DNA of 64,000 nucleotides from Oecophyllibacter saccharovorans (lineage in GTDB: Bacteria > Pseudomonadota > Alphaproteobacteria > Acetobacterales > Acetobacteraceae): positions 930,001 to 994,000 of the forward strand of contig NZ_CP038143.1 in the NCBI RefSeq assembly GCF_006542375.1, given 5' to 3'. Below, piece by piece: positions 30,242 to 32,724 of this stretch (within the stretch, counting starts at the first letter, position 1; the number at the start of each line of letters is the position of its first letter). The notes under the pieces were generated by a model, which saw only the letters and a list, made by a program, of their open reading frames with translations, did not search any database and was not told where the DNA came from. The position numbers were made by a program, and so were the translations under genes.

Positions 30242-30317
30242 GGGGCTGTAGCTCAGTTGGTAGAGCGCATCGTTCGCAATGATGAGGTCAGGGGTTCGAT
30301 TCCCCTCAGCTCCACCA
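30242..30317 (+). tRNA. tRNA-Ala (anticodon CGC)
   Basis: 76-nt cloverleaf with CCA encoded. The acceptor stem GGGGCTG pairs with CAGCTCC, the D-arm is GCTCAGTTGGTAGAGC, the anticodon stem CATCG/TGATG frames the loop TTCGCAA with anticodon CGC, and the T-arm is CAGGGGTTCGATTCCCCT(C). It reads GCG alanine codons, frequent in this GC-rich genome. Confidence 0.97.
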
Positions 30318-30527
30318 TGTTTTCCGGGCCCGAGAACGGAAAACACATATTATTTTCATAACATCATGATATTGAAGTGAGAACGGTTTCTCTCAAGGCC
30401 GTTCTTCACCCTGCCTCCTGAGGTCGTTCATCAGGGGCCAGAAGAAGCCTTGCGGGAAGGGGCTGCAGGCGGCTGCAAGGCGAAATGCGCAATTGCCGCG
30501 CTCAGAGATAAAAACGGAGAAACAATC

Positions 30528-31055
30528 ATGAAAAACACGGTTTACGGACGTTTTCTGGGCGTCGCCCTGATGAGTGGTGTGATGGGCGCAACCGGGCTGG
30601 CCTGGGCAGATGAGAAGCCCTGCACCACTGACCTGTGCCAGGCTACCCGCAACAGCTGGCAGCAGACTAAGGGCGCTGCCAAGGACGGTTGGCATGCGAC
30701 CAAAGATGCGGCCCATGACGCCGGCCATTGGACCAAGGAAACCGCCAAGAACGGTTGGCACGACACCAAAGACGCCGCGCATGATGCGGGCCATTGGACC
30801 AAAGAGACGGCCAAAGATGGCTGGCATGGCACCAAGGACGCCGCCCACGATGCCGGTCACTGGACCAAGGAGACGGCCAAGAATGGTTGGCATGGCACCA
30901 AGGACGCCGCCCACGATGCCGGTCATTGGACCAAGGAGACCGCTAAGAACGGTTGGCATGCGACCAAGAACGCAGCTCACGATGCCGGTCACTGGACCAA
31001 GGAAACTGCCAAGGAAGGCTGGCACGCGACCAAGGACCTGTTTACCGGTAAGTAA
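30528..31055 (+). CDS. Secreted 11-residue-repeat protein (LEA-like, Trp/His-rich)
   Basis: A 175-residue protein with a signal peptide (MKNTVYGRFLG, hydrophobic VALMSGVMGATG, cleavage likely after AWA at residue 27) and a mature start DEKPCTTDLC with two cysteines. From residue 41 to 172 it is 12 units of an 11-residue repeat alternating K(N/D)GWH(A/G/D)TKDAA and HDAGHWTKETA; five 22-residue double units (52-161) are almost identical, as are their 66-bp DNA copies at 30681-31010. Positions 2, 5, 7, 8, 9 and 11 (D/N, H, T, K, acidic, A) are kept, as in group 3 LEA proteins, which form amphipathic helices and protect against drying or acid. The start has GGAGAAAC upstream. Function is unknown; the exact family is not recognised. 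Confidence 0.8.
   Translation: MKNTVYGRFLGVALMSGVMGATGLAWADEKPCTTDLCQATRNSWQQTKGAAKDGWHATKDAAHDAGHWTKETAKNGWHDTKDAAHDAGHWTKETAKDGWHGTKDAAHDAGHWTKETAKNGWHGTKDAAHDAGHWTKETAKNGWHATKNAAHDAGHWTKETAKEGWHATKDLFTGK
30681..31010 (+). repeat. Five 66-bp tandem DNA repeats inside the repeat protein gene
   Basis: Five near-identical 66-bp units encode the 22-residue double repeats. Differences between units are mostly silent or fall at one variable residue (A, D or G after GWH), which suggests recent unit duplication or homogenisation with selection on the protein. Confidence 0.9.
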
Positions 31056-31167: not shown

Positions 31168-31207
31168 ATGGGAGCGATTGGCATCAGCCGGTCGCTCCCA
31201 TCTTTTT
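31168..31207 (+). terminator. Intrinsic terminator after the repeat protein gene
   Basis: ATGGGAGCGA pairs with TCGCTCCCAT around a 14-nt loop, followed by CTTTTTT. Located 112 bp after the stop at 31055. Confidence 0.9.
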
Positions 31208-31373: not shown

Positions 31374-31524
31374 GAAATTCCGCCTTTTTCCTATTCTGAC
31401 TCGTTGTTGAGATCCGTTCATGCCTCTTGAGACGTTTCGCTTTCGAAAAGCTTCCTTCATCCGTTCCGCTCAGGCGGTTCTGGCGTATTCCCCCTGCTCT
31501 GTGAAAACAAAGTGGGTGAAGAAC

Positions 31525-32724
31525 ATGGGTGTGAAGCAGATGATGGCCGGAATGATCAGCATGGCAGGCGTGGGGGTTGTGCCAGGCGGGCATGTTCTGC
31601 ACGCCGCTCCGGCAGTGCCCATTGCGGATTGGCGTGATCCGGCCACCTGGGAGAAGGAGCATGCCGTTCAGCAGCGCGCGCAGGCGGCGGCTTCCCACAG
31701 GCAGGGGGTGTATGTTTCAGCACCCCTTCCAGGCCATCCGGTCAAACCGACAGCTCCCTCCAAGGTGAGCAAATCTCCGGCAGTTGTACCGGAGCAATGG
31801 TATACCGGTTCTCTGGCGTCGCCGTCTCCGGCCTTGCCCGAGGCAGGGCTGTGGGGGGTTGAACCTTATGTGGGAGGAATGGCGCCTCATGGCGAGTTCG
31901 ACCCGCGCGGGCATTATACCAACAAGAAAGGTGACGGGCCCAACGGTTTCCAGCAGTTCACGCTGACTGAGTACTCCGTGACAAATCACGTCACCCTCTA
32001 CGTTCTGCCTTCCTACACCTATACCTGGGGGAACGGTACCCATCATTCATCCGGGCTGCAGATCAACGATTTTCCTATGGAGGTGAAATACAGGATCGGG
32101 CCCAATTATTCTCCGTCCCTGACGATCTCGATCGGTGCCAATGCCCCGGTGGGACGTTATTCCAACCTGCACAATGCTCAGGAAGGGGTGGGAACAGGCG
32201 CCTGGATCGCGCGTTTCGGGGTGGAAACGCAGCTGGTTTTTCCGTTTTTCAACCATCAGCAGCGCATCCGTGGCTGGGCGATGGAGCGTGAGCCTTTCAC
32301 TTCCACCAGCATCCGCAATGCCTCGGTCTATAACGGGATGAGCAATCCCTTCAATGGTGGCAGCTGGAAAGGATTTCGTGGCACAGGCCATCCCGGCGCC
32401 TTCGGCAATGAAGGGGTCTCGTGGGAAGGTGGCTTGACGCGTGGCTGGCTTCTGGCGCTTGACCTGTATCATACGTGGTCGGCCGGCACGCAGTATGGCG
32501 GACGGTTTACAGGTGACATGGCGCGGCTGCGCAGCCTGGGGTTGCCGACCGGGCATGTTCATTCCCACAAGACCCCTTGGTCCGGCGCCTTCCGCGTGGC
32601 CCCTGCGATTGAATATAACTGGAGCGGCTCCTGGGGCGCGATTGCCGGGTGTGACATCCCGGTTGTCGGCCATAACACTTCAGCGGCGCTTACCCCTGAA
32701 GCTGCGGTTTTCTACGTTTTCTGA
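31525..32724 (+). CDS. Putative outer-membrane beta-barrel protein
   Basis: A protein of about 399 residues that I place only by architecture. From ATG 31525 it has a signal-like N terminus (MGVKQMMAGMISMAGVGVVP, cleavage near HAAPA). A Pro/Ala/Ser-rich linker to about residue 105 is followed by alternating short hydrophobic strands (HVTLYVLPSYTYTW, PSLTISIGANAPVG, AWIARFGVETQLVFPF, GWLLALDLYHTW) and an aromatic C terminus FYVF, the pattern of barrel proteins. The strand region from VEPYVGG resembles the phenol-degradation MetA-like transporter group, but weakly. ATG 31420 and GTG 31501 are alternative starts. It has its own promoter candidate and is followed by an SDR gene. Confidence 0.6.
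   Translation: MGVKQMMAGMISMAGVGVVPGGHVLHAAPAVPIADWRDPATWEKEHAVQQRAQAAASHRQGVYVSAPLPGHPVKPTAPSKVSKSPAVVPEQWYTGSLASPSPALPEAGLWGVEPYVGGMAPHGEFDPRGHYTNKKGDGPNGFQQFTLTEYSVTNHVTLYVLPSYTYTWGNGTHHSSGLQINDFPMEVKYRIGPNYSPSLTISIGANAPVGRYSNLHNAQEGVGTGAWIARFGVETQLVFPFFNHQQRIRGWAMEREPFTSTSIRNASVYNGMSNPFNGGSWKGFRGTGHPGAFGNEGVSWEGGLTRGWLLALDLYHTWSAGTQYGGRFTGDMARLRSLGLPTGHVHSHKTPWSGAFRVAPAIEYNWSGSWGAIAGCDIPVVGHNTSAALTPEAAVFYVF

Follow-up and report, generated by a model that had tools for sequence, protein, structure and literature searches.

Amphipathic helices built from 11-residue repeats coat membranes in animals and protect plants from desiccation; we know of hardly any description of such helices being exported by bacteria. 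Hydrophilins are defined by a Gly content above 6% and a hydrophilicity index above 1, and acetic acid bacteria tolerate acid and ethanol. The LEA_4 group carries the motif TAQAAKEKAXE, which many Arabidopsis members also lack, and in LEA composition Cys, Phe, Ile, Leu and Trp are under-represented and Gly is low (PMC7215670). Zmo0994, a secreted LEA-like protein of the alphaproteobacterium Zymomonas mobilis, makes E. coli more tolerant of ethanol and of multiple stresses (PMC7448490, which also discusses the hydrophilin class). As it still protects E. coli from ethanol without its signal peptide (PMC7448490), this precedent is not clearly one of an envelope mechanism. A published table gives hydrophobic moments of 0.257 for perilipin-4 and 0.30 for alpha-synuclein, with aromatic contents of 0.2% and 2%, respectively (PMC5889406).

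The window analyzed here is a stretch of 64,000 nucleotides (G+C 61%) from the 1.94-Mb genome of Oecophyllibacter saccharovorans (Acetobacteraceae), and the closest named relative of its tldD is that of Parasaccharibacter apium (69% protein identity). At 30528-31055 (+) it contains an ORF of 175 aa that is present as a single copy in the genome, with the following features:

30242-30317, + strand: tRNA-Ala (CGC), the upstream neighbor, outside the gene (ARAGORN; Rfam RF00005)
30318-30345, + strand: 9-bp inverted repeat directly 3' of the tRNA, then a T-rich stretch; 100% complementary, RNA fold -12.5 kcal/mol; possible tRNA terminator
30516-30519, + strand: GGAG, probable ribosome-binding site 8 nt upstream of the ATG, read from the sequence
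30528-30608, + strand: probable Sec signal peptide, residues 1-27 (MKNTVYGRFLGVALMSGVMGATGLAWA), read from the sequence and from the signal-type N terminus in relatives
30609-30641, + strand: mature N-terminal segment DEKPCTTDLCQ with C-x4-C (Cys32, Cys37); KPCETDLCR in the closest relatives
30642-31037, + strand: array of twelve 11-residue units (residues 39-170); the five 22-residue pairs within it (residues 50-159) show 13/9 Trp spacing
31038-31055, + strand: C-terminal tail LFTGK and stop, similar to FFTGH / FLTGH tails in distant relatives
31168-31201, + strand: intrinsic terminator, 15-bp stem then TTTTTT, -31.8 kcal/mol

This layout agrees with the earlier note, in which a lone gene with its own terminator had been placed behind tRNA-Ala: as the inverted repeat at 30318-30345 suggests that the tRNA transcript stops there, the repeat gene probably stands alone. 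A tRNA-linked integrative element was rejected, since the tRNA 3' end does not recur anywhere in the window or genome and thus no att site was identified. In P. apium, tldD is followed by an outer-membrane-type gene, then by yggT and tRNA-Ala. The window homolog of this outer-membrane-type gene (45% identity) lies downstream of the repeat gene at 31420-32724 (+), and its different placement indicates that the spot has been rearranged. Its product is outer-membrane-like with no Pfam match, and the P. apium homolog (L002:7669-8796) is located across yggT and tRNA-Ala.

Residues 39-170 form exactly twelve gapless 11-mers, and residues 50-159 form five pairs of the pattern TAKxGWHxTKD + AAHDAGHWTKE. 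The earlier note had described these twelve units and five near-identical pairs, together with two Cys at the mature N terminus, and both are borne out, with Cys32 and Cys37 next to the signal-type sequence MKNTVYGRFLGVALMSGVMGATGLAWA followed by DEKPC. All twelve units carry one Trp and T9-K10, and 11 of the 12 carry His; the mature protein of 148 residues has 12 Trp, 16 His and an aromatic content of 9%. Tandem Repeats Finder reported a 66-bp period with 5.5 copies, 84% matches and a score of 440. The 22-residue pairs are near-identical as protein, yet share just 51-62 of 66 bases, and a pooled comparison of all pairs gave a pS of 0.72 against a pN of 0.044, with 14, 8 and 96 differences at codon positions 1, 2 and 3. 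From these values and the third-position excess it follows that the array is old, is read in the 30528-31055 frame and has had its amino acids kept. The third and fourth pairs (62 of 66 bases identical) were homogenized or duplicated at a later time. The synonymous/nonsynonymous pattern is reversed in a 210-aa antisense ORF and in the other long + frame, which rules out both as genes over the array; the antisense ORF (30393-31025, -), hydrophobic and repetitive, is a shadow of the sense codons with no selection of its own. Thus, 30528-31055 is a real, old gene under strong protein-level selection.

A homolog search, proposed in the earlier note, identified relatives in seven or more genera of acetic acid bacteria. 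The first protein search of genomes found Acetobacteraceae relatives at E about 1e-12, and a search with alignment A2 matched 26 of 397 Acetobacteraceae genomes from 7 of 102 genera at E<=1e-5, E-values being optimistic for repetitive proteins. This uncharacterized family is common in acid- and ethanol-tolerant bacteria, with matches in 38 of the 49 species of one genus group, which is Acetobacter because the A. lambici match (C21:3954-4220) is identical to that of G788 in the group. A second group, probably Gluconobacter, has matches in 15 of 26 species. No family member was found in P. apium or Commensalibacter communis, and scanning genome contigs with peptide patterns returned no relative, as the sequence is too repetitive and divergent for patterns. 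The open-licence literature searched contained no paper on the family, defined here as the acetic-acid-bacterium Trp 22-mer repeat by its signal-type N terminus, KPCxxDLCxxxRxSW, Trp spacing of 13/9 and the consensus GWxATKxGxxxAAxWTxKE.

The closest relatives have in common the signal-type N terminus, the sequence (E/D)KPCETDLCRSVRQSW and a Trp spacing of 13-9-13-9. The window protein has the family N terminus (DEKPCTTDLCQATRNSW), in which both Cys, Ser43 and Trp44 are invariant in alignment A2, and five consecutive 13/9 Trp pairs that fit the consensus; the 13/9 spacing is kept in nine acetic-acid-bacterium relatives. Three sub-types were distinguished: a KPCxxDLC start with 13/9 Trp spacing; an SCxSGxCQ start with FFTGH tails and Trp spaced 17/9/11; and, in Acetobacter, WDKTKEGTxxA 11-mers without the C-x4-C start. 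Unit number varies among relatives, with mature lengths of 80-219 aa. The earlier note had called the regularly placed Trp and His unusual, which holds relative to LEA proteins but not within the family, where Trp is general; its suggestion that Trp provides membrane contact is plausible, the Trp pattern being family-wide. The gene is placed differently in each genus with no neighbors conserved across genera, and these unrelated neighborhoods mean that context gives no function. One member is carried on Gluconobacter sphaericus plasmid pSJF2-d (L158:4986-5381), between 3'-5' exonuclease and metallophosphoesterase genes and with a VapC toxin-antitoxin pair nearby; its DNA is 92% identical to that of a contig from genome G207.

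Among the family members scanned, none scored above Pfam or NCBIfam cut-offs except for Synuclein in Acetobacter. These Acetobacter cousins score 25.0-45.4 bits on Pfam Synuclein (cut-off 23.3), whereas the profile (PF01387) gave no match to the window protein; the scores probably reflect convergence on a KTKEG helix repeat, and such matches will produce 'synuclein' annotations in bacteria. Three Acetobacter-group loci (L110, L102, L109) encode exported AWDKTKEGT-type tandem 11-mers above this cut-off. Several candidates were rejected as composition-driven: L091, L097, L101 and L108 (other repeats), weak matches to PHROG tape-measure proteins and to Enterococcus and Caedibacter plasmids, and sub-threshold NCBIfam matches such as Ag473 and HVO_2922. 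L098 and L105-L107, proteins of another kind with a hydrophobic C-terminal segment, were rejected on the same ground.

Exact 13/9 Trp spacing was also found in nine proteins (L167-L175) of one genus outside the Alphaproteobacteria (g433; genomes of 1.9-3.1 Mb), which have signal-type starts and no C-x4-C. The 22-mer consensus is similar in three groups (acetic acid bacteria, xGWxATKxGxxxAAxWTxKE; the other class, xAWxATKxGAxxAAxWTxEK), and this likeness across classes may be due to common ancestry, to gene transfer or to convergence on the same geometry. Trp 11-mers were observed in other settings as well. An alphaproteobacterial exported protein (L126, approx. 913-1896, -) combines Trp 11-mers (VWETTKEKTEKAWQKTKK) with a larger C-terminal domain, suggesting that the Trp repeat also occurs fused to folded domains. 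A short ORF on Zymomonas mobilis plasmid pZM41 (L159:1477-1659) consists of near-perfect 11-mers of a different Trp type (EKVRQALNWVK). An exported protein from a 2.1 Mb genome (L095, G139) has a Pro-rich linker and C-terminal Trp 11-mers, and its end, WHSVKDLFS, resembles the window GWHATKDLFTGK tail.

All 19 proteins analyzed (the window protein, at 98.5, and 18 relatives) had a hydrophobic periodicity peak at 98.5-99 degrees, i.e., at 11 residues per 3 turns rather than at 100 degrees, although the shuffle test gave no better than 0.05-0.09 for some short relatives. On the helical wheel of the window protein, acid (positions 11 and 4) is followed by W8, A/T1, A/G5, T9, A2 and W6, and then by K10, K/H3 and H7; its hydrophobic moment is 0.24-0.26. 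AlphaFold, run on the single sequence, predicted one continuous helix over residues 35-173 (pLDDT mostly 56-79, mean 65; pTM 0.25), which is weak evidence as lone repeat sequences are often drawn as helices. The periplasmic 11-mer amphipathic-helix protein of the earlier note is supported by this predicted helix, by the 98.5-degree periodicity and by the signal-type N terminus in relatives.

With a probability of about 0.5, we propose that the protein is an exported 11/3 amphipathic helix which, by adsorbing to the membranes of the envelope or to hydrophobic protein that is exposed, protects them from acid, ethanol or drying. Support comes from the strong selection, the 98.5-99-degree moment in 19 of 19 proteins, the continuous helix predicted with modest confidence, the sector-segregated wheel and the 13/9 Trp spacing in two classes; the Synuclein scores of the Acetobacter cousins, the DsbB encoded in the genome, a moment near that of perilipin-4 and the Zmo0994 precedent were also counted in its favor. 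Export to the periplasm is suggested by inspection of the signal-type sequence in the window protein and relatives. Once the signal peptide is removed, the C-x4-C start would probably close as a disulfide, and the 11-mer array would probably be loosely ordered in solution and form one long 11/3 (3-11) amphipathic helix upon surface contact. The small residues A, T, G and A would form its apolar face, bordered on each edge by a Trp, and the opposite face would be divided into an acidic side and a Lys/His side. Many weak, velcro-like contacts could attach such a helix to either the inner or the outer membrane at its periplasmic leaflet, or to envelope proteins that are unfolding, and this adsorption may shield the envelope from acid, ethanol or drying. 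From the low hydrophobic moment and a net charge near zero at pH 7, binding to anionic lipid is expected to be weak at neutral pH. As a tentative extension, the Trp 13/9 22-mer may represent a distinct selected design in at least two proteobacterial classes, a periplasmic counterpart of the synuclein/apolipoprotein-type 11/3 membrane-coating helices, to which the His stripe of the window protein would add pH-sensitive binding. The repetitive design also provides a handy model for relating Trp placement to surface binding of an 11/3 helix.

A soluble hydrophilin or LEA-like protectant is a rather unlikely reading; such a protein would be largely disordered, would fill the periplasm and shield proteins as water is lost, and would make no specific contact with membranes. 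The mature window protein falls within the hydrophilin composition limits (Gly 10.1%, GRAVY -1.42), is low in complexity and highly hydrophilic, and is encoded by a single gene whose unit number varies in relatives. However, a space filler would need neither 12 Trp at fixed spacing in 148 residues nor strong selection on the units, and Trp and Cys are rare in LEA proteins (PMC7215670). Here Phe, Ile and Leu are scarce as in LEA composition, but Trp reaches 8.1%, and the two Cys and the Gly content also depart from it. The LEA_4 profile (PF02987) gave no match to the window protein at E<=1 and one weak match (E 0.0011) among nine family members. The motif TAQAAKEKAXE is absent, and the 11-residue repeat is present.

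Repeats with small residues at positions 2, 5 and 9 (spacing 3-4-4) suit a hendecad core, and the unbroken predicted helix and a Cys-bearing N terminus that could join chains would be consistent with a rigid rod, i.e., a right-handed coiled coil with an A/G/T core acting as an oligomeric periplasmic strut or filament. This is less probable again: the range of mature lengths among relatives suits no fixed span, core Gly is unfavorable, and a search of solved structures by sequence and fold found no relative of the window protein.

The 16 His include five HDAGH (i, i+4) pairs along one helix side, and the computed net charge rises from about 0 at pH 7 to +22 at pH 4.5. It is conceivable, at low odds, that the protein is chiefly a metal or proton buffer, in which the HxxxH of five units would bind Zn, Cu or Ni, or act as a charge switch by becoming protonated below pH 6. 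Relatives, by contrast, carry 1-6 His without the HxxxH stripe, the five HDAGH being confined to the window protein, which argues against a conserved function; metal binding by His, raised in the earlier note, is thus not supported as a family function. Asp and Glu also account for part of the charge change, and no obvious metal gene was seen near the repeat gene. The stripe could nevertheless be a local addition for metal or pH sensing in the window protein. Finally, tandem expansion at the DNA level with no selected function, as might be read from a 66-bp array with two units identical at 62 of 66 bases, is highly improbable, being already contradicted by near-saturated synonymous sites alongside kept amino acids and by 13/9 spacing in relatives from several genera.

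The proposed exported, surface-adsorbing helix has several known counterparts. Group 3 LEA proteins share with it the 11-residue repeats, Ala richness, fixed positions for Lys and acidic residues and a predicted amphipathic helix, but unlike them the window protein has no LEA_4 match or motif, has 8% Trp, 10% Gly and two Cys, and is probably exported. The group 3 LEA resemblance drawn in the earlier note hence stands for the 11-mer repeat, as an analogy, and falls for profile, motif, Trp and Cys; the protein may work like a group 3 LEA protein, and is not a LEA_4 member. Zmo0994 is likewise small, hydrophilic and alphaproteobacterial, with a signal sequence and a sugar/ethanol habitat, although the main text of the paper, from whose description it was compared, contains no 11-mer/Trp pattern (PMC7448490). 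BilRI of Aggregatibacter actinomycetemcomitans is located in the envelope and has eleven LEA-like 11-mer repeats; it differs in being an outer-membrane lipoprotein without aromatic residues or a C-x4-C start (PMC8096337). Finally, the window protein is Trp-rich, bacterial and probably exported, whereas perilipin-4 is nearly devoid of aromatics; with no homology implied, it shares with synuclein and perilipin-4 the 11/3 periodicity and a weak, long amphipathic face, with a moment of 0.24-0.26 compared to 0.257-0.30.
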